NCBI GenBank assembly: GCA_030674185.1
Contig: CM060307.1
Span: 47,203,681 to 47,267,680, forward strand
Direction: 5' to 3'
DNA from: Monoplex corrugatus
Lineage: Eukaryota > Mollusca > Gastropoda > Littorinimorpha > Ranellidae
DNA length: 64,000 nt
Both the position numbers and the translations under genes were made by a program. Each line of letters starts with the position of its first letter. The stretch's first letter is position 1. Shown here in pieces: positions 6,606 to 63,276 of the stretch. The notes below the pieces were generated by a model, which made no database searches, was not told the origin of the DNA, and worked only from the letters and a program-made list of their open reading frames with translations.

Positions 6606-6805
6606 TCATTGTGATTCCCTTTGCTGTCTCTCCAGCTTTTTCCGCAGTCTGATCATCCTCATCCTTTCCCGACATTTCTGGCGGTACAGGGAGTATTTCT
6701 CAGGGCTGGACTGCAGTCTGTCCTTCAGTCGCTGCCACTCGCGGGTCAGACAGTAGGCACGTCCCTGTGGCAACCCGTGCCATGAGCTCGTGGGTATTCT
6801 TACAC
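6606..6805 (-). CDS. Basic-module terminal exon 1
   Basis: Coding exon read from an acceptor (TTTCTTTCAG, reverse complement of 6806-6815) to a stop at 6606-6608. It is 200 nt, so it begins two bases into a codon (phase 1) and encodes 65 full residues. The core runs EWQRLKDRLQSSPEKYSLYR then CRERMRMIRLRKKLERQQ. The usual Asp-Pro is Ser-Pro here. There is no signal peptide, membrane segment or cysteine pattern. The open frame continues upstream into what I read as intron because the acceptor matches the other eleven exons. It would be the last exon of the array in transcription order. Its tail resembles module 12 at the far end (CRERMR versus CKERMR). Function is unknown; the basic helix suggests nucleic-acid binding. 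Confidence 0.72.
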
Positions 6806-6857
6806 CTGAAAGAAACCACAGGGCGTTTTCAGTCATTGCCTTGGCTGTGTTATACAT

Positions 6858-7010
6858 ATCATAGATCTACATCTGTAGTGCTTGTCTCTGTCACACATAT
6901 GACAGATTTACAGTCTGTAGTGCTTGCCTCGTCTGTAGTGTTTGCCTCTGTCATACATATGACAGACTCACAGTCTGTAGTGCTCGGCTCTTTCCTACAC
7001 ACCACAGGTT
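6858..7010. repeat. Imperfect repeats with dyad symmetry
   Basis: Repeated motifs CAGTCTGTAGTGCTTGCCTC and TCTGTCATACATATGACAGA, the latter a near-perfect palindrome around CATATG. They lie about 50 bp upstream of the module 1 acceptor, in the presumed intron. Confidence 0.7.
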
Positions 7011-7640
7011 TACAATCTTTACCGCCACAATGAAAGCTCATAAACCAAAGACGGTAGAAAGGTACATACAATACTCTCTCTGATACAATCACAAGAACCA
7101 CAATGACGAGGAATAGTAAAAACAAAGGATCCTCGTAGTAAAAGGAGGTAACAGTAAGTTCTTTGGTGAGAGTCTATATTAACAGTCTCTGCTGAACGCT
7201 CTCAGTTGTGATCAGTTCAGTCAAAAGCCAACACAACGACACACAGAGAGAACCAACAACAAGCAGCAAAACACTGTGAAAGCACCGTATCCATCTGTAC
7301 ACAGCACAACCTCACTTTGTCATGGTTTTCTTTCTCTACACCCAAAAGTTTCTGTTCTAAACTAAATCAACTAAGAGCGTTGATGAATGTGGCGATAGAA
7401 GTTCGTCATGTGTTTTGTATTCGTCTTGCTCTGTATCTACTTCAATGCCTGTTATCCCACAGTGAATACATATTTTTTGTAGTATGTTAACCGATGCTGT
7501 TCTTAAAAAGACCAGGCACAGTCTTGGCTGTGAGCTGTGCCAGCTCAGTATTTGTTTACATATTTCACGGCACATGTACCACACCTTACATCCTGCCTCC
7601 AAAAACTACAGACTGAGTGATGGATGACCATATTTCGTCC
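7011..7640. other. No recognisable feature
   Basis: Unique sequence between the palindromic repeats and the large minisatellite. An 81-codon minus-strand frame (7357-7602) shows no known motif. Confidence 0.4.
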
Positions 7641-10600
7641 TGTGCTGACTTCAGGCAAAACATTGTCCATGGTAAACGTCCTGTGCTGACTTCAGGCAAG
7701 ACATTGTCCATGGTAAACGTCCTGTGCTGACTTCAGGCAAGACATTGTCCATGATGAACGTCCTGTGTTGACTTCAGACAAGACATTGTCCATGATGAAC
7801 GTCCTGTGTTGACTTCAGGCAAGACATTGTCCACGATGAACGTCCTGTGTTGACATCAGGCAAAGACATTGTCCATGATGAACGTCCCGTGTTGACTTCA
7901 GGCAAGACACTGTCCACGATGAACGTCCTGTACTGACTTCAGGCAAGACATTGTCCATGATAAACGTCCTGTGCTGACTTCAGGCAAGACATTGTCCATG
8001 ATAAACGTCCTGAGTTTACTTCAGGCAAGACATTGTCCATGATGAACGTCGTGTGTTGACTTCAGGTAGAAAAGACATTGTCCATGATGAACGTCCTGTG
8101 CTGACTTCAGGCAAGACATTGTCCATGATGAACGTCGTGTGCTGACTTCAGGTAAGACATTGTCCATGATGAACGTCGTGTGTTGACTTCAGGTAGAAAA
8201 GACATTGTCCATGATGAACGTCCTGTGCTGACTTCAGGCAAGACATTGTCCATGATGAACGTCCTGTGTTGACTTCAGACAAGACATTGTCCATGATGAA
8301 CGTCCTGTGTTGACTTCAGGCAAGACATTGTCCACGATGAACGTCCTGTGTTGACTTCAGGCAAAGACATTGTCCATGATGAACGTCCCGTGTTGACTTC
8401 AGGCAAGACACTGTCCACGATGAACGTCCTGTACTGACTTCAGGCAAGACATTGTCCATGATAAACGTCCTGTGCTGACTTCAGGCAAGACATTGTCCAT
8501 GATAAACGTCCTGAGTTTACTTCAGGCAAGACATTGTCCATGATGAACGTCGTGTGTTGACTTCAGGTAGAAAAGACATTGTCCATGATGAACGTCCTGT
8601 GCTGACTTCAGGCAAGACATTGTCCATGATGAACGTCGTGTGCTGACTTCAGGTAAGACATTGTCCATGATGAACGTCGTGTGTTGACTTCAGGTAGAAA
8701 AGACATTGTCCATGATGAACGTCCTGTGCTGACTTCAGGCAAGACATTGTCCATGATGAACGTCCTGTGTTGACTTCAGACAAGACATTGTCCATGATGA
8801 ACGTCCTGTGTTGACTTCAGGCAAGACATTGTCCACGATGAACGTCCTGTGTTGACTTCAGGCAAAGACATTGTCCATGATGAACGTCCCGTGTTGACTT
8901 CAGGCAAGACACTGTCCACGATGAACGTCCTGTACTGACTTCAGGCAAGACATTGTCCATGATAAACGTCCTGTGCTGACTTCAGGCAAGACATTGTCCA
9001 TGATAAACGTCCTGAGTTTACTTCAGGCAAGACATTGTCCATGATGAACGTCGTGTGTTGACTTCAGGTAGAAAAGACATTGTCCATGATGAACGTCCTG
9101 TGCTGACTTCAGGCAAGACATTGTCCATGATGAACGTCGTGTGCTGACTTCAGGTAAGACATTGTCCACGATGAACGTCGTGTGTTGACTTCAGGTAGAA
9201 AAGACATTGTCCATGATGAACGTCCTGTGCTGACTTCAGGTAGAAAAAGACATTGTCCATGGTGAACGTCGTGTGTTGACTTCAGGTAGAAAAGACATTG
9301 TCCATGGTGAACGTCGTGTGTTGACTTCAGGTAGAAAAGACATTGTCCACGATGAACGTCCTGTGCTGACTTCAGGTAGGAAAGACACTGTCCACGATGA
9401 ACGTCCTGTGTTGTCTTCAGATAGAAAAGACATTGTCCATGATGAACGTCCTGTGCTGACTTCAGGTAGAAAAGACATTGTCCATGATGAACGTCGTGTG
9501 TTGACTTCAGGTAGAAAAGACACTGTCCATGATGAACGTCGTGTGTTGACTTCAGGTAGAAAAGACATTGTCCACGATGAACGTCCTGTGCTGACTTCAG
9601 GTAGAAAAGACACTGTCCATGATGAACGTCGTGTGTTGACTTCAGGTAGAAAAGACTGTCCATGGTGAACGTCGTGTGTTGACTTCAGGTAGAAAAGACA
9701 TTGTCCATGGTGAACGTCCTGTGCTGACTTCAGGTGGAAAAGACACTGTCCATGATGAACGTCGTGTGCTGACTTCAGGTAGAAAAGACATTGTCCATGA
9801 TGAACGTCCTGTGCTGACTTCAGGTAGAAAAGACACTGTCCGTGCTGAACGTCGTGTGCTGACTTCAGGCAAGACATTGTCCGTGCTGAACGTCCTGTGC
9901 TGACTTCAAGCAAGACATTGTCCATGGTGAACGTCCTGTGCTGACCTCAGGTAAAAAAGACACTGTCCATGCTGAACGTCCTGTGTTGACTCCAGGCAGA
10001 AAAGACATTGTCCATGGTGAGCGTCCTTTGTTGGCTTCAGGTAAAAAAAGACACTGTCCATGCTGAACGTCCTGTGTTGACTCCAGGCAGAAAAGACATT
10101 GTCCATGGTGAGCGTCCTGTGTTGACTCCAGGCAGAAAAGACATTGTCCATGGTGAGCGTCCTGTGTTGACTCCAGGCAGAAAAGACATTGTCCATGGTG
10201 AGCGTCCTGTGTTGACTCCAGGCAGAAAAGACATTGTCCATGGTGAGCGTCCTGTGTTGACTCCAGGCAGAAAAGACATTGTCCATGGTGAGCGTCCTGT
10301 GTTGACTCCAGGCAGAAAAGACATTGTCCATGGTGAGCATACTGTGTTGACTCCAGGCAGAAAAGACATTGTCCATGGTGAGCGTCCTGTGTTGACTCCA
10401 GGCAGAAAAGACATTGTCCATGGTGAGCGTCCTGTGTTGACTCCAGGCAGAAAAGACATTGTCCATGGTGAGCGTCCTGTGTTGACTCCAGGCAGAAAAG
10501 ACATTGTCCATGGTGAGCGTCCTGTGTTGACTCCAGGCAGAAAAGACATTGTCCATGGTGAGCGTCCTGTGTTGACTCCAGGCAGAAAAGACATTGTCCA

Positions 10601-10829
10601 TGGTGAGCATACTGTGTTGACTCCAGGCAGAAAAGACATTGTCCATGGTGAACATCCTGTGTTGACTCCAGGCAGAAAAGACATTGTCCATGGTGAGCGT
10701 CCTGTGCTGACTCTAGGCAGAAAAGACATTGTCCATGGTGAACATCCTGTGTTGACTTCAGGCAGAAAAGACATTGTCCATGGTGAACGTCATGTGTTGA
10801 CTTCATGCAGAAAAGACATCATCTACGGT
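7641..10829. repeat. 41/45-bp minisatellite with 501-bp higher-order unit
   Basis: About 75 copies of a unit containing GACATTGTCCATGATGAACG then TCCTGTGCTGACTTCAGGCA. From 7641 to about 9200 the unit is mostly 41 bp; from about 9230 it is mostly 45 bp because of an extra AGAA. In the 41-bp part a 501-bp block is repeated three times: the rare variant CCTGAGTTTACTTCAGG falls at 8011, 8512 and 9013. The 45-bp part is nearly homogeneous at 10080-10740. Since 45 is divisible by three, several frames stay open for 130-366 codons, all of one 15-residue repeat. The array ends 37 bp from the module 2 stop codon. Confidence 0.97.
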
Positions 10830-10865
10830 GAACATACTAAAATCTATGCAAGTTCACAGCCAGAT

Positions 10866-11104
10866 CTATCTATGCTGTCCATCCACTGCCCTTTCTTGTC
10901 GTTTTTTCGCCCGCAACACCTGCATTCTCTGCCGCTGCTTCATCTTGATCAGCTGATAGTGTTCCGGGTCGCACAGCTTGACACGTTTGCGATACTCTCT
11001 CATTTTCTGTGCTTTGACGCTGGGCGTGGACATGGCCTCTGTGTTAGTTACAGGGGGTGGCTGGCGGAGATGACTCACCAAGATGGGACGATGCAGGCGA
11101 GGGG
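10866..11104 (-). CDS. Basic-module terminal exon 2
   Basis: Acceptor GTCTGTTTTCAG (reverse complement of 11105-11116), exon 239 nt, phase 1, 78 full residues, stop at 10866. The first 30 residues are Pro-rich and specific to this copy (HLRQPPPVTNTEAM). The core follows: KMREYRKRVKLCDPEHYQLI, then KQRQRMQVLRAKKRQER. The Asp-Pro pair and the tyrosine two residues after it are conserved. The minisatellite starts within 40 bp after the stop, so any 3' UTR would run into tandem repeats. A long plus-strand frame crossing this exon is the antisense extension of the minisatellite frame. Confidence 0.75.
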
Positions 11105-11809
11105 CTGAAAACAGACGGAAACACTTCCATGTCAGGCCCACAACCACGCTAATTCTGATAAGAGACAACATATGTACACAAACAAACAAATAAACCAGTC
11201 AAAAGGAAAGCAGTACTGTCGTCACAAAGCTAACAGGAACAGAGATGTAAGTGCTTTTTTGTGGATGTACTGACAGATTTCAAAACAATATTGACCCTAC
11301 AATAGTTACACACCATATAGGGAATCGATAATAAAATAGAGGAATATTTAAATGAAATCGTACTCTGCAGCAAATGAGGGATATTCTAATAAAAGCGTGT
11401 TCTACAGCAAATCAATATTTGATATAATATGGCCATTTGAATTGAAAAGTCAACGGTTGTCTTCAAGGAGAGAAAAAAACAACAACAAGCTAACACAAAA
11501 CACTAACAACAACAACAAAACAAAGTAAACATATAAAACCATCACGCTTGCATGTTCTTGGGAAGTCAGTAGTAAAAACAGCAAGCCTACCTATAAAACT
11601 TCCACGAGCTGAATAACAGACAGGAACAACGGTGTACAAGACAGACATGCTGGCAACAATGTCTATGTCACCAACAAGGTGTCTGATGATCTGTAGCCTG
11701 AAAGAATCAATGCCACTCCTCATGGAAAACTTGAACTAATTCCTGGGGACCCTGAGAAACTGGAAACTTTTTTTTGCTGGCGATGCCCTGAAGATGTTCG
11801 TGGGCCCCT
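11105..11809. other. No recognisable feature
   Basis: AT-rich unique DNA upstream of module exon 2 in transcription order, presumed intron. A 77-codon frame at 11490-11723 has no support. Confidence 0.4.
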
Positions 11810-11960
11810 TAGGTGAGTTTCAGTTTCAATTTCTCACGATGACCGTCTCCGCGCTCGGAATGAAGAAGATCCAGAATGAACACGACACAAGCCTTAAACC
11901 TGCACATAAACCCATGTGCTGGCCAAGTCCTGAAGTCTTACCTAGATAGTTCCATAACCC
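11810..11960 (+). mobile_element. Dispersed SINE-like repeat B, copy 1
   Basis: Begins near GTTTCAGTTTCAATTTCTCA and contains GATGACCGTCTCCGCGCTCG, then GCCTTAAACCTGCACATAAACCC. It matches, with divergence, copies at 20775 (inverted), 22326 and 63655. Confidence 0.7.
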
Positions 11961-12319
11961 TGGTGTCGTAGGGGAGTGAGGTGGCAGAGACCTCAACTTT
12001 TCCCAAGGCCAGCACAATGAAGTCGACCCCCATCCCCTCCCGCTCGCTTCAAGTTCACATTCATATTCACTTTTTTTTAAAACCATGACTTCATAAAGGC
12101 AAGAAGGCTAATTGGTCTTCAAGGGGTGGGACTGGGAAATCAACGTATCTCTCCAATATTTTATACCAAGACAGATGGGCAGTGCCCTGCTCTTCACGAT
12201 TTTCAACTGCCGTGGGATCTTTAGCGTGCGCAGCCAGGAGACACACGGGTCCAACTCGTTTTTCGTTCCTTCCGAAAGACTGGACGTTCAGTTCGAATTT
12301 CCGGTCAAATTGAGGTTTA

Positions 12320-12405
12320 AAGTCGAGGCCTCTATGTGGAGCGAACCCTGAAACCTCGAGTTTAGTTACGGGCAGGCAACGTCTGAACCATTCTGCCACT
12401 ATTCT
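12320..12405 (-). mobile_element. tRNA-derived SINE head
   Basis: On the minus strand AGTGGCAGAATGGTTCAGACG (A-box type, 12380-12400) is followed by GAGGTTTCAGGGTTCGC (B-box type, 12342-12358). Related sequence may extend left to about 12100. A 102-codon frame over this element is not a gene. Confidence 0.55.
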
Positions 12406-12409
12406 CCCC

Positions 12410-13374
12410 CTTAAGTGAACAACAGCACAGTATCCGTACAGCTGTCCGAACAGAGCATTTGCGTTTCTTTTCGGTACCTTTCTCTATTTATAACAAACAT
12501 ATATATTGTACTTAACGCACTGAGTACAAAATCCGCCGCAAAGATGGGATCTTTAAAAAGAAATTACGATTTCTGTAATGAAATACTACAATGCACTCTC
12601 CCCCGCTGGATGAATGAATGCATACCATGCTATCGTCTGGTTTATGGCATACATGAGAACTAGGTCAAGGCCGTTCCCTTAACTGGTCCGGAATCTTAGC
12701 CCACGCACCAGTAAGTATGGTAACATTCAACATCTGGCACACATCACTGAGTTTTGAACATAGGGCAGTGGTGGGAATCTGATTACGGCGTGCACTGGCT
12801 GGGACTTGGTCTGATCAAGAAAGACAAAGCAACAGATCACGGCTTTTCAAAAGCGATATGTCTTCATACAAGTTAAAACCTACCCCCCTCCCCCCACCAC
12901 TTCATTTACGAGCAGTATCCCAACTGATGAAACAAATGTAATCTTAAAACAAAATCAGATCAAAATAACACCCACACACAAATCTACAAATGACAGTGAT
13001 TTTTTAAAGCTTGTTTTCAGTGGATCAATAATTTATTACAGAAACTGACGAACAAAGCGTTTGCCAGGTGCCACAATGGAAGCGAGAAGCCAAGTAGTCA
13101 TCTAATCTTCCCCCTTTGCAGAAACAAACAAACGGACAAACAAAACAAAACAAAGAAACAGGCAAACAACTAAAACAATAACCATCACTATCCCCCCCCC
13201 CACCACACACACACACAACAAAACAACAACAAAACACACAGAAAGAAAATACAAACAGAAAAAAACAATCAAAAATCAGCAACCAACCAAACAAAAAGAT
13301 AGTTTTCTCACCCTTCATGTTCGCATCGTGTTTTCTGTGGTGTGGTGAGGTACACCATCTTAACTGGTCCTTTG
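12410..13374. other. No gene seen; A/C-rich low complexity
   Basis: Contains C-rich runs near 12885 and 13190 and an AAAC-rich stretch at 13120-13290. The Phe/Cys-rich frame opposite that stretch is low-complexity noise. Confidence 0.4.
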
Positions 13375-17964: not shown

Positions 17965-18125
17965 CTACTTCCTTTCCAGTTGCTGCAATAATTTTTTCCT
18001 GGCTACGTATCTTCGCATCCTTGCATTGGCAGCACGGCGCATGCGCTGGTACTTTTCCGGATCCTGTTTTTGGCGCTGACGATAATTCCGCCAGTACAGC
18101 AGCTTCTGCTGATGCTGCCGATCAG
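17965..18125 (-). CDS. Basic-module terminal exon 3
   Basis: Acceptor TTTTGTTTCTTTCAG with a long pyrimidine tract (reverse complement of 18126-18140). The exon is 161 nt, phase 1, 52 full residues, stop at 17965. This is the cleanest example of the core: YWRNYRQRQKQDPEKYQRMR, then ANARMRRYVARKKLLQQLE. The leader before the core is only about ten residues, so the core alone may be the essential part. A four-copy 60-bp tandem repeat begins about 160 bp upstream of the acceptor. Confidence 0.8.
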
Positions 18126-20774: not shown

Positions 20775-20990
20775 GGAAGGCTGATAAAATACAGCTTAAA
20801 ATATAGACTAGGTAAAACACAGTCCAGGTAGGGCCTCAGGACCTGGCCAGCTCATGGGTTTATGTGCAGGCTTAAGGCTCGTGCCATGATCATCATATAC
20901 ATGGCACCTGTGACGTTAGTGCATATGGAATTCGTTCTGAGCACGGAGACGTCATCTTGAGAAACTGAAACTGAAACTGAAACTAACCCA
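20775..20990 (-). mobile_element. Dispersed SINE-like repeat B, copy 2
   Basis: Inverted relative to the copy at 22326. It includes AAAATATAGACTAGGTAAAA, TGGCCAGCTCATGGGTTTAT and ends GAAACTGAAACTGAAACTGA. It is the reference that shows part of module exon 4 is SINE-derived. Confidence 0.8.
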
Positions 20991-22325: not shown

Positions 22326-22515
22326 TTCAGTTTCAGTTTCAGTTTCTCAAGATGACGTATCCGCGCTCGGAATGAATTCCATATGCACTAACGTCACAGG
22401 TGCCATGTGTATGGTGATCGAGGCACAAGCCTTAAGCCTGTACAAAAACCCATGAGCTGGCCAGGTCCTGAGGCCCTACCTAGACAATGTTTCACCTAGT
22501 CTATATTTTATACTG
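22326..22515 (+). mobile_element. Dispersed SINE-like repeat B, copy 3
   Basis: Starts GTTTCAGTTTCAGTTTCAGT, with GACGTATCCGCGCTCGGAAT and CACAAGCCTTAAGCCTGTAC, and runs to about ACCTAGTCTATATTTTATAC. Its right end overlaps the 3' end of module exon 4 on the opposite strand. Confidence 0.8.
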
Positions 22516-22723
22516 GTGAAGGGATGGGAGAAAAGAACCACGCGCGTACCGATGGGACATAGCAGACCACTTTGTTGTTTAAGTTTCTGCCTGGCTCTAT
22601 ATCGCTTGACCCTCTCCAGGTTCAAGGCCTTGGTCCTCTGGTAGCGGACCGGGTCATTCTTCACACGCTGACGGTACCAGAAGTCCGTTATCCGACGTGG
22701 CACTTTCGCCTGACAGTAGACCT
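22476..22723 (-). CDS. Basic-module terminal exon 4, SINE-derived C-terminus
   Basis: Acceptor GGTTTTGTGCTTTCAG (reverse complement of 22724-22739), exon 248 nt, phase 1, 81 full residues, stop at 22476. The core is FWYRQRVKNDPVRYQRTKAL then NLERVKRYRARQKLKQQ. It is followed by about 32 residues unlike the other modules (SGLLCPIGTRVVLFSHPFTS, then IKYRLGETLSR). The last eleven or so codons and the TAG stop coincide with the inverted end of SINE-like repeat B, judged from the matching copy at 20790. The original tail was probably shorter and was extended by the insertion. Confidence 0.72.
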
Positions 22724-22975: not shown

Positions 22976-23902
22976 TATACTGCTTGGATAAATTTATGCA
23001 TACCATATACAGCGAAAACATCATGAGAAACCTAAACGAAGACCCTGGATTAAAGGTTGGAGGGAAAATGATAAACAACATTCGATAAGCAGATGACACC
23101 GTGCTAATTGCAGAAAATGAAAGGGACCTACAAAACCTTGTGAATATACTAGAAATAGAAAGCAAAGGTAAGGGGTTGGAACTAAACAGCAGGAAGACTG
23201 AAGTTATGGTGATCAGTAAAAAACATGAAATCCCCTCATGCAAAATAACAGCAAATGGCACAACCCTGACACAGGTTAATAAGTTCAAATACCTGGGAAC
23301 GGTCATTTCATCAGACGGCAGATGCACATCGGAAATAGCCGGCAGAATCGGCCAAGCCAAAACAGCATTCAAGAAGATGACAAGCATTCTTACCAACAAA
23401 TGCCTATCAATTAACATCTGGAAGAGAGTCCTTGAATGTTATATAGAACCAATACTGTTGTACGGATGTGAGGCGTGGACAGTCAGCAAGCAAATCCAGA
23501 GCAAGATTGAGGCAGCCGAGATGTGGTTTCTCAGAAGAATGTTGAGAGTTCCATGGACAGCAAAGAAAACAAACGAGACAGTCTTGATGGAGGCAGACAC
23601 AAGTAGATCACTCATATGGAACATTAGGAAAAGACAGGCAACATTTATAGGCCATTTTATGAGGAAGGGGGATTTTGGAACACCTGGTCACAACGGGACA
23701 GCTGGAGGGAAAGAGAGCACCAGGTAGACCCAGGGAGAAAATGCTAGACGGACTTGCGGAGTGGCTGAAGACGAGGAGGGTGGAGGAGATGCTTGGGGCA
23801 ACAAGAGATAGAGACAGATGGAAGTCCATGATTGCCAACGCCATGCGGCAAGGCACTTGATGATGATGATGATATACTGCTTGGATAAATTTATGCATAC
23901 CA
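22976..23902 (+). mobile_element. 5'-truncated RTE-like LINE with 30-bp target-site duplication
   Basis: The 30-bp flank beginning TATACTGCTTGGATAAATTT occurs at 22976-23005 and again at 23873-23902. Between them is the end of a non-LTR reverse transcriptase, starting just upstream of the catalytic ADDT motif (near 23089; a stop sits just before it). The thumb and C-terminal region follow, with KFKYLGTVISSDGRC, ILLYGCEAWTVSKQ and MWFLRRMLRVPWTAKK. A frameshift near 23670 moves the last 60 codons (GRPREKMLDGLAEWL) into another frame. The element ends in (TGA)n, as RTE elements typically do. It is non-functional but fairly young. Confidence 0.88.
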
Positions 23903-28978: not shown

Positions 28979-29145
28979 TCACTGGTCCTTCTGGTGTCTC
29001 AGCCTAGCCAGTCTCTTCTGGTGGTAATATCGATCTTTCTGTTCCCTCATTCTCTGGTAGCGGTGTGGCTCACGTAACAACTTTTGGTAATAACGCTGGT
29101 TGATTTCTCTTCGCTTGACCTTGGCCCGTAGCTCCTTGGATATCA
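28979..29145 (-). CDS. Basic-module terminal exon 5
   Basis: Acceptor TTGGCCTGTTTTCAG (reverse complement of 29146-29160), exon 167 nt, phase 1, 54 full residues, stop at 28979. The core is EINQRYYQKLLREPHRYQRM then REQKDRYYHQKRLARLRHQK. Glu-Pro replaces Asp-Pro, and the basic helix is Tyr/His-rich rather than Met/Arg-rich. It is closest to modules 6 and 7, which share an R-K/R-E leader and a paired aromatic (YY or YW) at the start of the core. It lies only 1.3 kb from module 6. Confidence 0.77.
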
Positions 29146-30482: not shown

Positions 30483-30655
30483 TCAGCGATTGGACGACTC
30501 AGACCGTCTTCGATTCTCTCTCCACTTTCTGGCATAATCTTTATTGAGCTGCAGTCGTCGCTGATAGCGCAGTGGGTCCTCTTGTTGAAGTCGCAGCCAG
30601 TAGCGTCGTTTATATTCCTTGCGTCGGGCTCGCTCTCTCTCTCGGGGCGACAGCG
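30483..30655 (-). CDS. Basic-module terminal exon 6
   Basis: Acceptor GGCTTCTTTATTGCAG (reverse complement of 30656-30671), exon 173 nt, phase 1, 56 full residues, stop TGA at 30483-30485. It has no in-frame ATG and would be missed by an ORF scan; the 67-codon minus frame that overlaps it is the wrong frame. Reading from the acceptor gives LSPRERERARRKEYKRRYWL, then RLQQEDPLRYQRRLQLNKDY and ARKWRENRRRSESSNR. A 1.9-kb minisatellite starts 35 bp upstream of the acceptor, leaving little unique intron there. Confidence 0.77.
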
Positions 30656-30689
30656 CTGCAATAAAGAAGCCACAGGTCAGTTACCTCCC

Positions 30690-32600
30690 GCTATGGCAAC
30701 CAATACACCTACTGTCTATAACAACGACTTTCCCCATATGGCAACCAATACGCCTACTGTTTATAACAACCTTCCGCTATGGCAACCAATATGCCTACTG
30801 TTTTATAACAATGATCTTCCATATGGCAACCAATACGCCTACTGTTTATAACAACCTTCCGCTATGGCAACCAATATGCCTACTGTTTATAACAATGATC
30901 TTCCATATGGCAACCAATACGCCTACTGTTTATAACAACCTTCCGCTATGGCAACCAATATGCCTACTGTTTATAACAATGATCTTCCATATGGCGACCA
31001 ATACGCCTACTGTTTATAACAACCTTCCGCTATGGCAACCAATATGCCTACTGTTTATAACAATGATCTTCCATATGGCAACCAATACGCCTACTGTTTT
31101 AACAACCTTCCGCTATGGCAACCAATATGCCTACTGTTTATAACAATGATCTTCCATATGGCGACCAATACGCCTTCTGTTTATAACAACCTTCCGCTAT
31201 GGCAACCAATATGCCTACTGTTTATAACAATGATCTTCCATATGGCAACCAATACGCCTACTGTTTATAACAACCTTCCGCTATGGCAACCAATATGCCT
31301 ACTGTTTATAACAATGATCTTCCATATGGCGACCAATACGCCTACTGTTTATAACAACTGTTTATAACAACGATCTTCCACTTTGGCAACCAATACGGCC
31401 ATTGTTTATAACAACTTTCCATATGGCAACCAATACGTTTACTGTTTATAACAACGATCTCCCATATGGCAACCAATATGACTACTGTTTATAACAACTA
31501 CCTTCCATATGGCCACCAACACGCCTACTGTTTATAACAACTACCTTCCATATGGCCACCAATATGCCTACTGTTTATAACAACTACCTTCCATATGGCA
31601 ATCAACACGCCTACTGTTTATAACAACTACCTTCCATATGGCCACCAATATGCCTACTGTTTATAACAACTACCTTCCATATGGCAACCAACACGCCTAC
31701 TGTTTATAACAACGATCTTCCATATGGCAACCAATACGCCTACTGTTTATAATAACCTTCCACATGGCAACCAATACGCCCATTGTTTATAACAATGATC
31801 TTCCATATGGCGACCAATACGCCTACTGTTTATAACAACGATCTTCCACTTTGGCAACCAATACGCCCATTGTTTATAACAACAACCTTCCACATGGCAA
31901 CCGATACGCCCACTGTTTATAACAACGGTCTTCCATATGGCGACCAATACGCCTACTGTTTATAACAACTGTTTATAACAACGATCTTCCACTTTGGCAA
32001 CCAATACGCCCATTGTTTATAACAACAACCTTCCATATGGCGACCAATACGTCTACTGTTTATAACAACTGTTTATAACAACGATCTTCCATTTTGGCAA
32101 CCAATACGGCTATTGTTTATAACAACCTTCCACATGGCAACCAATACGCCTACTGTTTATAACAACCACCTTCCATATGGCAACCAATACGCCTACTGTT
32201 TATAACAACGATCTTCCACATGGCAACCAATACGCCTACTGTTTATAACAACCACCTTCCACATGGCAACCAATACGCCTACTGTTTATAACAACGATCT
32301 TCCACTATGGCAACCAATACGCCTACTGTTTATTACAACCTTCCGTTATGGCTACCAATATGCCTACTGTTTATAACAACCACCTTCCATATGGCACCCA
32401 ATACGCCTACTGTTTATAACGACGACTTCCACATGGCCACCAATACGCCTATTGTTTATAACGACGATCTTCCACATGGCCACCAATACGCCTACTGTTT
32501 ATAACGACGATCGTCCACATGGCCACCAATACGCCTACTGTTTATAACGACGATCTTCCACATGGCCACCAATACGCCTACTGTTTATAACGACGATTTG
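30690..32600. repeat. 40-44-bp minisatellite, about 1.9 kb
   Basis: About 46 copies of CTTCCATATGGCAACCAATA followed by CGCCTACTGTTTATAACAAC and an optional GAT. At 30770-31350 two unit types alternate (CTTCCGCTATGG and CTTCCATATGG), giving an 84-bp dimer; since 84 is divisible by three, frames stay open for 110-174 codons. Many units carry CATATG. The array lies in the presumed intron just before module exon 6. Confidence 0.96.
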
Positions 32601-33109
32601 AGTGTAAACCTTATAGCAACTAAAACGTCTATCGTATCGTTCGTTCGTTCTTTGATTTAACGTCTTTTCACTATGAGTGATATTCGACAAAAACAAAACA
32701 ATACAAACCAACCAACCAACCAACCCGCCAACCAACCAACCCCACCAACCAACCATCCAGCTAACCAACCAACCAAACACACAAAACAACAATATATATC
32801 ATAATCCTATTACCTTTTATAGCCACGCTTTGTTTATATGGCAAACTTATCGCTTATAAATATAAATTTTGTGGAACATCCAATAAACCTTTCATATCAG
32901 GTTCAGTGGGGGAGAACGTTACATTCTATTCCTAACTTTCTACATCACATGTGCACTGCAGTATTCCATCATTTCTACAATCCCTGGCACAAAAACTTCT
33001 GCGTTTCCAAGCAGAACCTGGGGATTTATTTTGAATAAGACAGCATGGGATAGCATGAGACTGGAAACAATATCAAGTTCGTAAATCAAAGGCTACTAGT
33101 CCGGGGGAG
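32601..33109. other. No gene seen
   Basis: A CCAA-rich tract at 32705-32780 and otherwise unique AT-rich DNA. Confidence 0.4.
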
Positions 33110-38927: not shown

Positions 38928-39061
38928 TTACATCGTCTTGTAGCGAGTCTCTCTATAATGTTTCTGTTGTTCCTTCAGCCGTTGGAAGCGAAGTGGATCT
39001 TTTTGTATCTTCTCATAGTAGCGCCTGTTCACCTCTCGCTTCCTGTTTCTCGCCGCCAGGA
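38928..39061 (-). CDS. Basic-module terminal exon 7 (shortest)
   Basis: Acceptor TTTGCTTTCCGTTGCAG (reverse complement of 39062-39078), exon 134 nt, phase 1, 43 full residues. TAA at 38928-38930 is reinforced by two more in-frame stops (TAA, TGA). Translation gives LAARNRKREVNRRYYEKIQK, then DPLRFQRLKEQQKHYRETRY and KTM. It has no upstream ATG and is too short for an ORF scan. It contains essentially only the core, which sets the minimum module. Phe replaces the Tyr after Asp-Pro. The degenerate LINE that fills most of the 8-kb gap to module 8 begins about 130 bp upstream of the acceptor. Confidence 0.76.
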
Positions 39062-47263: not shown

Positions 47264-47940
47264 TCACAGCTGAGAAGGTCCACTGTTTGAAGCAGGGGCT
47301 GTGACAGAACCATTACTGTCCTGATCACTAGCACTCTGGGCCCATGACAAAGACAGAGACGTGGCTTGACCAACACTGTCGCTGGTGGTCTGAGGCCAGG
47401 ACAAAGGAAGAGATGACTCTTGGCCAGGGCTATCGCTGATGTTTTGGGGCCAGCACACAGGAAGAGATGTGCCTTGACTGAGTTCACCCGAGTTGTTACT
47501 GTTGTTCCGGGACCTGGACACTGAAAGAGACGTTGGCTGACCAGGCTGACTGGGTTGGTCATTGATGGTAGTGGACCAGGACACGGGAAGAGATGTGGTC
47601 CGACCGGGTTCGCCAGAGCTGATACTGGTGGTCTTGGACCAGGACACGGGAAGAGATGAGGCTTGACCAGGGCTGTGACTGGTGGTTTGGGGCCATGGCA
47701 TGGGAAGAGATGTGGGTTGTTCTGTAGGAAACCATCTGGCTGTGGCCTGCCTGGGATTGTCGGCAACATTGGGAAGCAAAGAGCGAGGCCAACTCCTCAT
47801 CATGTTGTCCTTTGTGCGGTCCCTGTAGCGTTTGGCTGCGGCACGGTTCTGATGTTTCTTCCGTTCATGACGTGCTCTGTCCATCTTCAGCCGCTGCCAG
47901 GTCAGACTGGTTCTTCCCCGCGGCAACATGTTTCTCCACA
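47264..47940 (-). CDS. Basic-module terminal exon 8 with long Ser/Pro repeat tail
   Basis: Acceptor TTTGACCTGTGTCTTTCAG (reverse complement of 47941-47959), exon 677 nt, phase 1, 224 full residues, stop at 47264. Residues 1-50 hold the module: TWQRLKMDRARHERKKHQNR then AAAKRYRDRTKDN, with Asp-Arg in place of Asp-Pro. From about residue 70 the tail is an imperfect repeat of 18-21 residues, about seven copies, each built on T/S-S-L-P-V-S-W followed by P-Q-T-T-S-D-S-P-G-Q. The tail is rich in Ser, Thr, Pro, Gly and Gln and looks disordered. The frame stays open through all repeats despite unit divergence, which argues for coding. It is four times the usual length of the family. Confidence 0.78.
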
Positions 47941-52819: not shown

Positions 52820-53034
52820 TCACTGTGGCCTTGGTTTGTGCATGTCAGGCATGTAAGCAGCGCGTGCATTCATCAGCCTCTCCCTGTATCTTCTTGCCTC
52901 CTCCCTGTTGCGCTGTTTGCGCCGTTCATGACGTAACGGGTCCCGCTTGAGTCGTTCCCACACGGCCCGGTGTCTTGAAAAGGATTGTCTGACGCCACTG
53001 AACAGTGTGTCTGGGGACCGGAGAGACAGCAGCC
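52820..53034 (-). CDS. Basic-module terminal exon 9
   Basis: Acceptor CTGATTCCTGTCTTTCAG (reverse complement of 53035-53052), exon 215 nt, phase 1, 70 full residues, stop TGA at 52820-52822. An overlapping 60-codon minus frame is out of register and is not the product. Reading from the acceptor gives LLSLRSPDTLFSGVRQSFSR, then HRAVWERLKRDPLRHERRKQ and RNREEARRYRERLM, ending with a diverged Met/Pro/Arg tail. It is a close paralogue of module 10, 2 kb away. The similarity covers the exon and at least 60 bp of upstream intron (ACTACTTTCACTTCTCCATT), with a further match near 53487. Confidence 0.82.
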
Positions 53035-54997: not shown

Positions 54998-55215
54998 TTA
55001 TAACTGTGGTCTAGATGTCTGTGCATCTGGCATTTGAGCAAGCCGTGCTCTCATCAGTCTCTCCCTGTATCTCCTGACCTCCTCCCTGTTGCGTTGTTTG
55101 CGCCGCTCATGCCGTAATGGGTCTCGCTTGAGTCGTTCCCACACGGCCCGGTGTCTGGAGAAGGATTGTCTGACGCCACTGAACATTGTGTCTGGGGACT
55201 GGCGGGGCAGCAGCC
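54998..55215 (-). CDS. Basic-module terminal exon 10
   Basis: Acceptor CAAATTCCTGTCTTTCAG (reverse complement of 55216-55233), exon 218 nt, phase 1, 71 full residues, stop TAA at 54998. Translation gives LLPRQSPDTMFSGVRQSFSR, then HRAVWERLKRDPLRHERRKQ and RNREEVRRYRERLMRARLAQ. Between VRQSFSR and RERLM it differs from module 9 by nine synonymous codon changes and only one replacement (Val for Ala). Beyond that the tails differ freely. This is direct evidence that the core is under protein-level constraint. An ATG inside the exon would allow a 62-codon frame, but the acceptor and the conserved leader upstream of it favour the longer exon. Confidence 0.84.
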
Positions 55216-56079: not shown

Positions 56080-56264
56080 CAACTCCCCCCCCCCCCCCCC
56101 CCCCCCCCTGCAGGAAACGGTCTTTCACTGTTAAACAAATTCCTTCAGAAACGGAATAAGTTTAAAGCTTCACTGGACCTGTCTAGTTACATAGAAAGAG
56201 GGAAAAAAGTGAGAGACAGACAGACAGAGAGAGGGAGAGAGAGAGGAGACACAGAGACGGAGGG

Positions 56265-56334
<70 letters not shown>

Positions 56335-56487
56335 GGGTGGGAGACAGACAATATGAGGGACAACTATTTTACTGTGGGAAAAGAGGACACACAGTACAGG
56401 TCAATTTTTTGTTTTTTTACATCACAGCCTCAGATACTAAAGCATACCACACTTATGCAACACATAAACACAAATAATGTACTTGCA

Positions 56488-56541
<54 letters not shown>

Positions 56542-56580
56542 CACACACACACCACACCACACACACACACACACACATGC
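56080..56580. repeat. Poly-C, GACA and CA microsatellites
   Basis: Poly-C at 56084-56108, (GA)n and (CAGA)n at 56215-56335, and (CA)n with ACC interruptions at 56488-56577. A 179-codon frame spans them and is not a gene. Confidence 0.9.
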
Positions 56581-56584
56581 TGAT

Positions 56585-57725
56585 AGCATTTTACCAGATC
56601 AGGTTTGATGATGTTGGGTTCAAGACGGATTTCAATTTTAGAAGTTTGACGTGTCTAATGAAATCAGGGGAGAGAGTGGGGAGACGTTGTATATCAAAGT
56701 TTGACCGTCGTCTTTTGGTCACTAATGCATAACAGGGATCCAATAATACCAAAGACTGTTAGTATCGTTTGATAATCTTTGTGCATCTGAGAGTGGGTGC
56801 GTGGGTGGGTGTATGTGGAGGGGGAGTTTACACGCAGAAGTGTATTATTAAGAGCTTACTCTGACAGAAAATGAAAGCAAGTCATCACAAGTTTTAAAAG
56901 GATTACCACTGGACACGCACATTGATGACACCCTTGACATGACAACGTCCGTCTACTTTTGACCAGAACTGGAAGGTTTTAAATCGTGTTTATATTTTTC
57001 ACTATGTACTCGATGTATGTCGACAAGCTGAGATGCGCTGCCGATAACTGAACTGAGATGGCCACAAATTAACCATAACATGAAAAATGTGACTGGCCCA
57101 TCCCATTAACTGTATTACATCAGTATACACATGCCGAAAACAATACATTAAAGGGAAAAAAGTTAAGAGGAAAGAAAAGTAGTTTGATGTCCTTGGAAGT
57201 TTACCATCTCACACTGTTCACACAACATGTTTTCATGAAAAAATTAAGACAACACTGAAAACAACTGACTTTTATTCTCTTTTCATTTACAATGGCAAAG
57301 CTCATGCAATCATCCTACACGCTGATCAGTCTTGAAACAAACTTTCAGATACACAAACTTAAAACAATTGCTGATCCCCAGATAAGAAACAAGTTCTCAT
57401 TACCATCCAATCATGAAAAAAAGTTATAAAATATCAATGTACATGTATGTGTTCACGTTTGAACGTTACTACACAAAAGCAGAAAACCAGCAGGGCCTGG
57501 ACACCATTAAAACTCTGCTGTCTATAAACGCCACCTTATCTTTAATCTAGCTAACATTCCTCAAGGATCATTTCTCTCATACTGCCAAAATAATCTCAAG
57601 ACAACAATATACACAAAACTACAACAGACTCAGCACACAGAAATCAACTAGGTACTCTCTGGTAAGTAAAAGATGACGATTTTCTTGGGATCTCACGCGT
57701 AAACATACGCACAGATGTAATTGTT
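56585..57725. other. No recognisable feature
   Basis: AT-rich unique sequence in the long gap between modules 10 and 11. Confidence 0.35.
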
Positions 57726-58280
57726 TTTGTTGTTTAAAGCCCAGCCAATTGCGTACGGCTATAACCGTTTCAAAGCACAAGCAAAACTTCGACAGGAAAA
57801 AGAAAAGAAAAGAAAAGAAAATTAAGTAGCCTACGCATATCAATGTATTTGCGCACATAATCTAAGAAGATGCCCCCGGCGTTGACCACTCCATCCATTT
57901 TATCGCACACGGGATTTAAAAAAAAACCCACCTGATTACAAATCTAAACATACATAAGGACACAAAAGCATATATAAAAACGGGCATAAATTACTTAAAA
58001 TTACTTCCGCATATCTCACTTCCCTAGAGCCAAAAATGTACTTATTAATGCATGTATCCAATTATCAATCCTAAGAAAAAGTATGTAAGATTTTATCGAA
58101 CACATACAGGTGAATGGACCAGCAAGGCATAAAATGATAAGAAGAAATGACAGAAAGCTAAGGAGGAAGAAAGAAACAAACAGAGTGAGAGAAAAGAGGA
58201 AATTTCAAGCACAGAATTTCCAGAAGGTGCGGATACAATCTATACTGAAAGAGCACATGGCATCTCAACGGGGGGATGCA
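57726..58280 (-). mobile_element. Dispersed repeat D, copy 2
   Basis: Inverted copy of 51066-51625. It includes TTTAAAGCCCAGCCAATTGC at the left and AATTTCCAGAAGGTGCGGAT at the right. A (GAAAA)n run lies where copy 1 has a C/T-rich tract. The two copies face each other around modules 9 and 10. Confidence 0.85.
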
Positions 58281-58613
58281 CAGACATAAACTCCTTTCAT
58301 ATATATAAGCAAGCAGGACATCAAATACACACATTAAAGATCCTTTAAGCCACGTCAATTTTCAATGGTTTATGTAAACACCCAGCATGCACACTGACTG
58401 AAGACAAAGTAAGCAGACTGCGCAGAAATATAATGCCTGCACAGAGAGAGTGGTCAAAACAACATGCAACCGTGAAAGCATTGCTCAGAACTAAAACAAA
58501 ACAAAATTAAAAAAACCCAAGGAAGATGAAGTTATTTATCAATCACTACTGTCATTCTCGTCTTTTATAACTGCATAATTAGCACACATTACCAAGTTTG
58601 TTCTAATGGAAGA

Positions 58614-58807
58614 TTAACCCTTTGACTACCGCAGCCTGTCTACCAGCATCCTGCATTGTCAACCACACTAGCAAAGCAAAGACCTAATCCTTTGACTCCC
58701 TCACCCTATCCACCAGATTCCTGCAGGAAGCTGGTGGATAGGGTGAAGGAGTCAAAGGGTTAAGTTTTTGAAGTTGGTGGATAGGGTGCGGGAGTCACAA
58801 GGGTTAA
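58614..58807. mobile_element. TTAA foldback MITE, copy 10
   Basis: TTAACCCTTTGACTACCGCA at the left and GGGAGTCACAAGGGTTAA at the right, with a well-preserved central palindrome. Confidence 0.88.
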
Positions 58808-58914
58808 GATGGTCCGAAAAAGTCTAGTTTTGATATGAGATAGGAGTGGGGAGGGGATGTACACAACTGAAAAGGGGAGCAAATGTGGACAGCAATCTTT
58901 GATTTATATAATGG

Positions 58915-59232
58915 AGTCCGCCTATAACGAACCTGCTTACAACGAATTTCCAGCAATAAGGTACACTTAATTTTCCAAGCCCACTTCTTTCTTTTTCCTC
59001 TTGTGAAACGCTGTCTATAACAAACAGAATATACTATCGTGCATAACGACCTCTCCTTTGTACGGACGAAATTTTGTTTCCAGACTAAAAGGCCAAGCCT
59101 GTATAGTCTTGCCCTACAACGAACAAGCACTCAAGAGTGTTTCAACTGCAGTATCGCATACTGAGCACATGGCACACAGCCACAGCGATCACCATGACTT
59201 TACGCCTGAGGCAAAGTGTGTGTGTGTGTGTA

Positions 59233-59307
<75 letters not shown>

Positions 59308-59782
59308 GTGTGTGTCTGTGTGTGTGGGGGGTGGGTGTGTGTGTGTGTGTGTGGGTGTGTGTGTGTGTGGGTGGGGGTGTGGGGATGTGTGTGTGGGGGT
59401 GGGGGTGTGTGGGGGTGTGTGTGGGTGTGGGGTTGTGTGTGGGGGGGGGGGGGTGTGCGTGTGTGTGTGTGTGTGCGTGTGTGTGCGTGCGAGCGTGCGT
59501 GCATGCGCGTTTCGTTTTTGGTGTCGTCATTGACTGACCCACAGAAATGACTGATAAACGCCATACTGATGACCCAAAATAGAGGAATGATAAACGTCAT
59601 AATGATGACGTATACAATAAGGAGTGAACTGAATAACATCAAAATTCCACCAGTAAGGCGATAACCAATCACCGCTGTGTAAGGTCACTGGTTTTCCTTA
59701 CTTGTAGTACGTTGTACCTACTACGAACTGCTGCTGTAACGAATACATTTACATTTTCTTTGAATTTCGTTGTAAGCGGACT
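58915..59782. mobile_element. Possible DNA transposon MITE with AGTCCGC termini
   Basis: Left end AGTCCGCCTATAACGAACCT; right end, complemented, AGTCCGCTTACAACGAAATT. Internal TATAACAAA/TAACGA repeats are typical of non-autonomous elements of the pogo/Tigger type. A TG/GGTG microsatellite (59213-59505) lies inside. I found no clear TA duplication, so the class is tentative. Confidence 0.5.
59213..59505. repeat. TG and GGTG-rich microsatellite
   Basis: (TG)n, then G-rich variants (GGGGTGTG) including a run of twelve G near 59439. Cys/Val and His/Thr frames across it are artefacts. Confidence 0.95.
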
Positions 59783-60227
59783 ACGCTCTAGATGGTAAGA
59801 TTGAAGGAACGGGGATACGGAATGTCAGGTAGCAAGAAATTCTAGGGACAACCAGGCAGCAGAAGATCCTCACAGGGAAAATGGGCCATCTATGTCTAGA
59901 GGCAAGCATTACGCCCTGCCAAGTATACCCGACCATAGGTGGCTGTCCAACAGAGCTATGATATACCCACTGAACAGTTTCCTGTTGGTGTAATTATTGC
60001 ATAATAGGGAATCGCTATACAATTGAGAAATCACCAATATTGCAGCCTGTTTGCTTTACTGTGATAAAACCATTCCCACAATTAGTTACACAATCATTAA
60101 CACAGTACTTGCATGCTCTCTCTCTCTGTGTCTCTCTCTCATCAATGTTCTGCTTACCACAATCCATTTTTTTATGCGTATTAAAACTTTACTATGATTG
60201 TGTGTTTGGACTGCTCTGTACTGCACT
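59783..60227. other. No recognisable feature
   Basis: Unique DNA with a short CT run at 60118-60140. Confidence 0.35.
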
Positions 60228-60311
60228 GCAAGAAGCTGGTGGATAGGGTGCGGGGGTCAAAGGGTTAAACTTTTGTAGTTGGTGAATAGGGTGCGGGAGT
60301 CAAAGGGTTAA
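60228..60311. mobile_element. TTAA foldback MITE, copy 11 (right half only)
   Basis: AGAAGCTGGTGGATAGGGTG, an internal GTCAAAGGGTTAA, then the outer arm ending GTCAAAGGGTTAA at 60311. The left half is missing. Confidence 0.8.
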
Positions 60312-60434
60312 AACCGCGTTGAAGTCAGGGACAAGCTATCTCACTGGGAGACTCAACCTACTCAAGACGATAATCATTAAGGTACCGTATCCATACTGTA
60401 TAACAAGATAGTCATTAAAAAAATATCTACTAAA

Positions 60435-60448
60435 ACACACACACACAC

Positions 60449-60524
<76 letters not shown>
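60435..60524. repeat. CA microsatellite
   Basis: (CA)n with one AACA interruption. Confidence 0.97.
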
Positions 60525-60525
<1 letters not shown>

Positions 60526-61576
60526 TAAGACTTTATGAAGCAAAGAGAAAGTATGAACAAGTTTGATGGTAGATGGTGAAACTTTTTTCTAATCTGAAAA
60601 CGATAGATACTTCATGCAAAAAATATCACCTAAACATCTTCCAAGTTTACAAAAAAGACCTCACCCATATACTGTTGTTATGGATCAGGTGATCACCTTG
60701 GGCCATTTCTGGGTTGTAGATCTACATAAAACAATGAAACAAACCAGCTCGACCCTCACCAAACACTTCTTACCCATTACTATCTTTAACATCTACATAC
60801 GGTCAATGACACATCAAAACTAAACCACTAAATCACAAAGACAAGAATATTAACAAGCTAGGCAACACTGGAGTCGCCAACCCTTCCACTTGATTTAGCA
60901 TTTCCATATTCTTAAAATGAATTCTACAACAAAAAGCCAGATGGCATTTAACACTGCAGAATGGACAGCGAGTATCCATCCAAGGATTTTCAACATTATA
61001 CACCCAACATGACCAAAGCATCAGAGTGGGCAGCTTCGCATGCATTTCACAGATATCAGAGGGAATCTTCCTTCAAAATATACATGTGAATGAATCAGTT
61101 GTCAAAAAAAGATGATGACTCAAGAAAGTCTGGAGAAAAAATTTTGAGCACGTACAGAAAACAGGGACTTTATTACACATTGCAGCCAGAACATAAGGCA
61201 ATACTTCATACTCGTACTGTTCTGCAACCCAACGTAAAACTTTCAGTTTAAAAGGCAAACTTTAATGACACGCTAAGGATGTGCGACTTTAGAAAAGCAC
61301 AAGTAATTTCCAAAGATCATCATGGCTCTCTAAGGATCTTGATAATCTATCTCTTTTCAACAATATGAGGCCAGCAACATATTCTCCCGACTAATCAATA
61401 TCCTATTCAATTTTGGATGCACAGCAATTCTCATGGTCCGAGTCCACTTAAGAGTTGATCTTATCAATGCATGTCCAACCTCCTGTATGTTTATCCTCCG
61501 ATGATATCAAAAAGTGACTGTGCTAGACAACCTTGTTTCTCTTGAGCTTATGTTCGTTTAGGAAAAAAAAGTAAAA
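60525..61576. other. No recognisable feature below module exon 11
   Basis: Small frames at 60614-60823, 60833-61045 and 61073-61258 carry no recognised motif. Confidence 0.35.
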
Positions 61577-61773
61577 TCATTGTGACATAGTATGACTGCT
61601 CAAAGACAGCATCTTTTTCTTCATTCTAGACTTCCTCATGCTGGCCCTGGCCTGTTCTTTCCAACGAGCGTAACGAACAGGATCCTGTTTCACCTTCTGC
61701 CAGCGCTGACTCTGTACTTGAGCATTCTGATGATACCATGTATTCAGGTCACCCTGTAGAGACGTCAATAGGT
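61577..61773 (-). CDS. Basic-module terminal exon 11
   Basis: Acceptor TTGTGTCTTGTTTCTTGCAG (reverse complement of 61774-61793), exon 197 nt, phase 1, 64 full residues, stop at 61577. The leader LLTSLQGDLNTWYHQNAQVQ leads into the core QRWQKVKQDPVRYARWKEQA, then SMRKSRMKKKMLSL. It shares length, the L-L/M-T-S start and K-x-D-P-V-R-Y-A with module 12, so the two are a sister pair. A TTAA MITE starts 70 bp upstream of the acceptor. Confidence 0.79.
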
Positions 61774-61843
61774 CTGCAAGAAACAAGACACAACCAGTGT
61801 ATTTATGACTATCCTTAAACAGAACAGACGCTTACTGTTTTCT

Positions 61844-62020
61844 TTAACCCTTTGATTTCCGCATCCTATCCACAACTGCAAGAACTTAACTCTTTGACTC
61901 TATCATCCTATCCACCAGCTTCCATGGATGAGGGAGTCAAAGGGTTTTAAGTTTTTGCTTTGCTAGCATGATTGACAATGCAGGATGCTAAAGGACATGG
62001 AGAGGGAGTCAAAGGGTTAA
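61844..62020. mobile_element. TTAA foldback MITE, copy 12
   Basis: TTAACCCTTTGATTTCCGCA at the left and GGAGTCAAAGGGTTAA at the right. The inner palindrome is shortened (CCAGCTTCCATGGATGAGGG). Confidence 0.85.
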
Positions 62021-63079
62021 ATGCTTTCTGAAAGGAAATGAAGCTCAACCCAGAGCACTTCACTTTTTAAATTAAAATTTGACAAGGATGGACAGAGCTC
62101 AGTCAAAGCGCAGTGACTCCACTTATAACTGATCTTTAAGTACAAAATAGGCCTACTGTCTCAATTCGTCCTCTCTGGCGTATCAGTTTCTCAATCTAAT
62201 GCCTGGTTGCTACACATTGTCTTTTCAAATCATCAATTCATTATGTTTGTTTTTGTTTATTTCTAGTCTACTTGATTGTAGTTGTTGTTTTTAAAAGACG
62301 GTTCTATTTCTTCTCTGTCGTTGTTGTTCTTTTGTTTGTATTAGTTAATTTTGTTGTGACAGTACAGATCAAATACAGAAGTTAATCTCAGCAGAACACA
62401 AACACTGTACACGTACACTATTACTAGGGTTTTTGGTTTTCCGAGATCATCTGAATGTATGCAGGAAACACTTCCAAAAGTTAGATTATGCTGCGTTGGG
62501 ATGTAAAAACTGAGACACTGACACAAACTACTTTGACCACCTCTGATCTTTACTACAGAGGGGAAAAGACTCTTCAAGAAAGCTATACAAATTCATGGGA
62601 AAATAATATTGAATGAATCCAATTTTACAGCAAAAAATAACAAAAACAAATCCCTGACTATTTTCATGCTCGATTCTCTTAACACATACAATCAAAATCA
62701 TAGCACTCTTTGAAGAAAATAGGTATGGTTGTGTGGGTTTGTAGCAGTTCAAAATCCTAACACTCTTTGAAGAAAACAAGTATGGTTGTGTGGGATTGTA
62801 GTGGTGTGAGACAGCATGCCTAGGGTGTAGCACAGACAGAGTGAAGAAGGGGATACTTTTCGTGTGATGTGGTGCCTACAGATGTTCATTTGTGGATGTG
62901 CATGATTATGCATATACATATGCGCGCACATATACTAAGGATTTAGCAAGCTGTTTTATGCTTATTGGAAAAAAAACTCAGTTTGAATAGCAGTATCAAA
63001 TACGTCAGGCACACACGGAAGGTATGATTGCAACTCTATAATACGTCATGGACTCTACTGGCAATTCAAACACAAACAA
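62021..63079. other. No gene seen between modules 11 and 12
   Basis: Contains a 57-bp tandem duplication (CACTCTTTGAAGAAAATAGG near 62704 and its variant near 62761). A 101-codon minus frame covers that duplication and is not convincing. No start exon for module 11 could be recognised in this gap. Confidence 0.4.
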
Positions 63080-63276
63080 TCAGTTTTGCTGAGATCTTTG
63101 TCTTTCAAGTAATTCAATCTTTCTCCTCATTCTGCACTGTCTCATTCTCTCCTTGCACTGTTGTTTAAAAATGGCGTAGCGAACAGGATCTTCTTTTAAC
63201 TTGCGAAACCACTTCCTCTGGTACTCAGACTGTTTGTTGCCACACTCCCCTTTGTGCAGAACTGATGTCATCAACC
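63080..63276 (-). CDS. Basic-module terminal exon 12 (first in transcription order)
   Basis: Acceptor GCGTTGTGTCTTGCAG (reverse complement of 63277-63292), exon 197 nt, phase 1, 64 full residues, stop at 63080. Leader LMTSVLHKGECGNKQSEYQR, core KWFRKLKEDPVRYAIFKQQC, then KERMRQCRMRRKIELLERQR. It has three cysteines, more than any other short module, but no obvious disulfide pattern. Any constant upstream exon would lie to its right, from 63277 on or beyond the window. Confidence 0.8.

Follow-up and report, generated by a model that had tools for sequence, protein, structure and literature searches.

The minus strand of the window, by which we mean the whole stretch of 64,000 nucleotides of Monoplex corrugatus DNA analysed here, carries twelve homologous exons that are entered in phase 1. 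These exons are probably alternative last exons that share one donor, at the end of a constant part lying further upstream, and the products would then likely be transcription factors that have a common front and differ in their basic DNA-binding tails. The interpretation as alternative last exons had been put forward in a preliminary description made from the letters alone, and it is supported by the gene models of gastropod relatives, in which many variable last exons follow a shared donor. This support from relatives is direct for the exon m47264 and comes through paralogous tails for the other eleven; that all twelve are used by one gene is what we infer.

The twelve minus-strand exons of the preliminary description were all located where it had placed them, each having an uninterrupted frame that leads from the acceptor to an individual stop (Table 1). 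Phase-1 entry also held for every exon, the length leaving a remainder of 2 on division by three in 12 of 12 cases, but since paralogous exons inherit their phase, the twelve equal phases are not twelve independent trials. For the acceptors, a simple weight matrix was applied to the open stretch that precedes each core. The acceptor chosen in the earlier description was top-ranked in 11 exons and second by 0.06 bits in m10866, and when all 3,763 AGs on the minus strand of the window are ranked, the chosen acceptors fall into the top 0.1 to 5.8%. The core, described as D-P-x-R/K-Y, proved looser than had been written: the proline is present in 11 of the 12 exons and D-P in nine, while the strict form D-P-x-[R/K]-Y was found in just five (17965, 22476, 30483, 61577 and 63080). 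When a profile of the twelve modules was compared with the six frames of the window, only the twelve were above the inclusion threshold, the best other frame having an E of 0.21. In leave-one-out profiles, for which 52820 and 54998 were removed together, all twelve modules were recovered at E 2.5e-12 to 6.5e-4, above every non-module frame (best E 0.03 to 0.51). The twelve homologous exons are thus confirmed as real. Poly(A) signals were uninformative, AATAAA or ATTAAA within 1,500 nt being missing for three of the exons (6606, 10866 and 22476).

Table 1. Predicted variable last exons in the window, with the comparison that characterises each.
Exon	Feature	Positions	Strand	Length (nt)	Comparison
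m6606	variable last exon	6606..6805	-	200	Nucella ACOMHN_022961 counterpart, 70% over 64 aa
m10866	variable last exon	10866..11104	-	239	leave-one-out E 2.2e-5; best relative 40%
m17965	variable last exon	17965..18125	-	161	Nucella ACOMHN_022962, 85% over 47 aa
m22476	variable last exon	22476..22723	-	248	leave-one-out E 3.2e-11
m28979	variable last exon	28979..29145	-	167	weakest leave-one-out, E 6.5e-4
m30483	variable last exon	30483..30655	-	173	leave-one-out E 1.3e-5
m38928	variable last exon	38928..39061	-	134 (shortest)	leave-one-out E 4.5e-9
m47264	variable last exon	47264..47940	-	677	Babylonia LOC143299846 (P0008), 81% over 48 aa
m52820	variable last exon	52820..53034	-	215	Nucella ACOMHN_022965, 77% over 56 aa
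m54998	variable last exon	54998..55215	-	218	recent duplicate of m52820
m61577	variable last exon	61577..61773	-	197	database relative P0004, 70% over 64 aa
m63080	variable last exon	63080..63276	-	197	database relative P0005, 63% over 41 aa

A database search with the aligned modules, which the preliminary description had suggested as the way to the constant part, led to it in gastropod proteins. The alignment of twelve modules found seven proteins, three of them from Nucella lapillus (ACOMHN_022961, 022962 and 022965), and the number order of these three matches the order of their counterparts in the window. With the joined cores as query, one long protein was detected, LOC143299846 of Babylonia areolata (P0008, 453 aa), in which a constant part is followed by the m47264 counterpart as the last part of the protein. 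P0008 resembles the window from the junction at residue 332-333 onwards, and the junction residue V is the amino acid that the G of the donor would encode together with the first bases TG of the exon. This best match is listed with a single isoform. With residues 1-340 of P0008 as query, 261 proteins were obtained, and the best 120 of these 261, as listed, are the basis of all counts given below; the organisms named among them are all gastropods.

All 120 listed proteins share the same N-domain, and two profiles of this domain, one built on 34 and the other on 10 unique sequences, each match 120 of the 127 collected proteins at E 3e-40 or better. The constant part in the relatives consists of this near-invariant domain of 75 residues, a mostly disordered linker and a stretch whose last residues are mostly D-[PS]-[AS] or a variant of this, after which comes a single G belonging to the next codon, as read from the database proteins. 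The linker, otherwise variable, carries a psi-K-x-E motif in which K and E are invariant (P0008 residues 241-244, alignment A2) and which resembles a SUMO site. Modules of the window's kind end proteins with the conserved N-domain and linker in Babylonia, Nucella, Littorina and Pomacea. Two proteins from short contigs, P0019 and P0042, have G-G... after D-P-[AS], which looks like a frame continuing across the donor into intron sequence; they may show the donor sequence itself.

Within the 64-kb window the N-domain was not found between or beside the modules with the same profiles (best E 0.29), and in tblastn of 13 of the 120 listed proteins against the window, residues 1-330 gave nothing better than E 0.08. 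For all modules but m47264 (11 of 12), no direct counterpart joined to a constant part was found.

Three Nucella proteins, P0001, P0003 and P0006, are annotated as small separate proteins. P0001 contains two module copies, and in P0003 the start of an m28979-like module is fused to an m17965-like one; the start of ACOMHN_022962 is similar to the first helix of m28979. P0006 reads through acceptor sequence, so that its model looks like an annotation error. All three are likely mis-modelled last exons, and automatic annotation can split genes of this kind into small hypothetical proteins, as in Nucella.

Within single genes of the relatives, an identical front is joined to different tails. This was observed for 77 proteins in ten gene sets from seven species, the rest of the 120 listed being fragments or without a listed partner of the same gene. 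The isoform sets are gene models of public annotation; six separately annotated Bradybaena proteins were counted as one locus, and four Littorina isoforms, agreeing in their first 337 residues, as one gene. At least 15 tails are present on the identical 314-residue front of Babylonia LOC143299761, 12 of them being of the window's type, and the other sets listed include Babylonia LOC143299684 (6 tails), Littorina saxatilis (4), Physella (16), Aplysia (12), Biomphalaria (11) and smaller sets. The first tail residue is GNN-coded in all 77 junctions (G 33, A 15, D 10, E 10 and V 9), the mark of one donor leaving a single G in a split codon, in agreement with the phase of all twelve exons of the window. 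With the window profile at a domain E of 0.01 or less, 31 of the 120 listed constant-bearing proteins end in a window-type module. One protein not counted among these carriers, P0121 (Aplysia isoform X15), has a tail with R-R-Y-R-E-R-L-K at a domain E of 0.016, which may extend the range of the module to heterobranch snails.

Some of the database items are RNA-like, namely P0029, which is named in transcriptome-assembly style, and P0021 and P0061, 1.3-kb contigs, with an uninterrupted frame from front to module. Among fragments that stem from longer contigs, the first long exon of the front enters other sequence after ...D-[TA]-G. Because the front exon breaks off there on the longer contigs, the unbroken frame from front to module is best read as spliced RNA.

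The tails of the relatives were compared with Pfam for 97 constant-bearing proteins (alignment A2; the 120 listed minus 23 fragments). At E 0.01 or less, the families found include zf-C2H2 in 32 proteins, homeodomain in two, FLYWCH in two, zf-Tnp_2 in two and HTH_psq in one, together with a weak match to UBA2_C and to TFIIF_alpha in one protein each. Of ten relatives checked singly, those with the homeodomain, FLYWCH, HTH_psq and one of the two zf-Tnp_2 pass the curated cut-off, and CENP-B_N (P0053) and the fingers of P0027 are below it. P0051 and P0031 of Babylonia have complete homeodomains as alternative tails on the constant front (E 1.3e-21 and 1.9e-20). The tail types recognised on the constant front are mainly DNA-binding kinds, and DNA binding is for this reason the likeliest role of the module too. 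By this analogy the module of the window is most likely a DNA-binding tail. Basic helices are able to bind RNA as well.

The module itself has no confident relative among known domains. When ten modules of the window were scanned with Pfam, six were without any family match and four had sub-threshold matches only. No solved structure related to the module was found, the nearest chain being NFIL3 at E 1.3, and no confident match was obtained when the predicted structures were compared with solved folds. The predicted structure of m52820 has helices at 7-29 and 32-60 with a mean pLDDT of 80, and the tail module is accordingly modelled as a pair of basic helices with a break at the D-P turn. For P0008 the prediction gives a helix at 3-24 and strands at 31-40, 46-59 and 62-65 (block pLDDT 58 to 84 for residues 1-70), then a low-confidence linker and a helical tail at residues 341-400 (block pLDDT 76 to 96).

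The only families matching more than one of 46 module sequences (the twelve of the window and 34 selected tail pieces from relatives) were bZIP_1, in five, and bZIP_2, in four, all weakly. The scores for bZIP_1 were 16.4 bits for m52820 and 20.1 for P0010 with a cut-off of 27.6, and that for bZIP_2 was 21.2 for P0010 with a cut-off of 22.3; the best bZIP_2 match among the 46 has an E of 1.3e-4, close to the cut-off. The match of m52820 spans profile positions 3-23 of 64, and that of P0010 extends to 39-40. The matches are mainly in the basic part, and by eye no heptad leucine run was seen in the twelve tails. At the level of sequence, the second helix of the module weakly resembles a bZIP basic region. 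We do not file the module as bZIP on these weak scores, the best of which come near the cut-off.

The exons m52820 and m54998 are a recent duplicate pair, in which the exon and about 100 bases of the preceding intron align at 86% over 312 columns. For the whole tail dN is 0.110 and dS 0.439, and for codons 8 to 56 dN is 0.036 and dS 0.383, giving a dN/dS of about 0.09 in the core, which suggests that the core of this pair is under constraint. The core is conserved at 70 to 85% in the counterparts of m6606, m17965, m47264, m52820, m54998 and m61577 from other sources, and for m63080 the value is 63%. Nucella and Babylonia supply the closest of these counterparts. The best relatives of m10866, m22476, m28979, m30483 and m38928 among the matches listed show 37 to 60%, and these may be paralogues.

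Repeats and transposon fragments are abundant in the region. The final 40 nt of m22476 with its stop (22476-22515) lie inside a repeat, an inverted copy of which is present at 20792-20983 (91%), and a mobile element seems to be the source of the end of this tail. In m47264 the module is followed by a long repetitive stretch (47264-47730) with repeats around S-L-P-x-S-W; in its Babylonia counterpart the tail after the module is likewise long, but different. Minisatellites with units of 41 and 45 bp occupy 7616-10841, the 45-bp array stopping about 25 bases downstream of the m10866 stop, and others are located at 2167-4200 (about 23 bp) and 30678-32640 (42 to 43 bp). Open frames resembling pieces of retrotransposon reverse transcriptase, as judged by eye, are present at 1444-1972 on the minus strand and 23089-23727 on the plus strand.

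Several other explanations of the array were considered. The twelve modules might be separate small tandem genes that each have a start and a promoter of their own and lack a common front. The annotation of Nucella has such small genes (ACOMHN_022961, 022962 and 022965), and an ATG stands in the open frame before the core in seven of the twelve exons, but the other five (22476, 30483, 38928, 52820 and 61577) have none, so that an ATG start is impossible there, and the same module terminates long proteins with the constant front in relatives. We consider this explanation very unlikely. The possibility that the modules are internal exons of one long repeat protein is the least probable of all. 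Phase-1 entry is compatible with symmetric 1-1 exons, and a GT above the top 5% donor score of the window was detected in 22476, 54998 and 61577. However, no in-exon donor belongs to the top 1% (3.77), just one site above the top 5% line (22476, score 1.37) keeps the 1-1 phase when the three best sites of each exon are taken from 60 nt inside, and the modules are C-terminal in the proteins of the relatives. A decaying array of dead exon copies would suit the abundance of repeats and transposon fragments and the stop that m22476 takes from a repeat. It is hard to reconcile with twelve open exons with good acceptors, with the low core dN/dS of the recent pair and with the 70 to 85% counterparts of six modules, and for the array as a whole it appears highly improbable, even though individual exon copies could be dead.

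The most serious of the alternatives, although itself unlikely, is that the tails are joined by trans-splicing or are shared out among several neighbouring constant-part genes. In Babylonia the constant-part genes LOC143299684, LOC143299761 and LOC143299846 are on one sequence, and in Nucella the constant parts ACOMHN_022959 and ACOMHN_022972 are on a contig equal in length to that of the module pieces ACOMHN_022961, 022962 and 022965; the twelve tails may therefore be split among neighbours. Trans-splicing is used by mod(mdg4) and lola, and in mod(mdg4) some variable parts lie on the opposite strand (PMC4667647). In contrast, all twelve modules of the window are on one strand, in an array of 56.7 kb without an interrupting constant part, and both features favour choice in cis.

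We therefore keep the reading as alternative last exons of a gene with a shared donor, for which the following mechanism may be proposed. The constant front would be located upstream of the window on the minus strand, beyond position 64,000, m63080 being the exon closest to it, and one transcript would select among the twelve tails, with one tail exon spliced at a time. The N-domain would bring partners or self-association, the selected tail would set the DNA target, and tandem duplication of the tail exons would widen the range of targets with the front unchanged.

The statement of the preliminary description that no system with this module was known agrees with the searches, there being neither a confident match in Pfam or among solved structures nor a description in the literature searched. 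In the same literature, which was searched without most subscription papers, a published description of the constant-front and variable-tail family of snails was not found, and six locus names of the family gave no match. The module is a candidate for a new DNA-binding domain, of which the 120 listed proteins provide 31 examples on known fronts. The modules of the window agree with this gastropod family in tail homology and in phase-1 entry.

The array had been compared with protocadherins. In clustered protocadherins the tandem variable exons come first and the constant exons last. The likeness, an array of tandem variable exons joined to a constant part, can be retained, but the variable exons of the window carry stop codons, and lola and mod(mdg4) offer the closer comparison. 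Membership in the protocadherins was rejected, since the variable exons end at stops and no cadherin family was detected in 10 modules and 97 relatives. The bZIP basic region is like the second helix of some modules, but the module differs from bZIP in its leading helix and D-P turn, as well as in its weak scores.

Genes in which DNA-binding tails are exchanged on a fixed front are known chiefly from a small number of BTB loci in insects. Drosophila mod(mdg4) and lola have, like the snail family, a constant N-terminal part and many alternative 3' tails of DNA-binding type: mod(mdg4) has at least 31 isoforms on a common 5' exon, most with FLYWCH (PMC4667647), and 17 of 20 lola isoforms have different C2H2 fingers (PMC11426971). 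The snail front, too, is found with tails of the FLYWCH, C2H2 and Psq types, and the arrangement that characterises lola and mod(mdg4), an identical front with varied tails of DNA-binding type, is found in the snail relatives (77 proteins, ten gene sets). Unlike in these two loci, the tail module of the window matches no known family at cut-off and several constant-part genes are found together in snails; BTB was not, at the sequence level, among the 24 Pfam families detected at E 0.01 or less in the 97 relatives. As to molluscs themselves, FLYWCH, CENPB and HTH-Psq factors are described as expanded, with HTH-Psq in Aplysia and Biomphalaria (PMC10027918), and such transposon-derived domains are found among the tails on the snail front. 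The main text of that paper describes no shared front part: the stem 'isoform' is absent from it, and 'exon' and 'splic' are each found a single time.

With moderate confidence we propose that gastropods have a socket-and-tail system of transcription factors which evolved separately from the insect BTB loci. It would combine a new domain of 75 residues, an invariant phase-1 donor and dozens of last exons, including arrays of a new basic DNA-binding fold of the two-helix-hairpin type, beside tails derived from homeobox genes and transposases. Such a system would offer a natural series of DNA-binding domains tried out in one exon slot. As a second and apparently unrelated case, it would demonstrate that evolution can produce this architecture repeatedly, and whether the insect and snail systems converged becomes directly testable.
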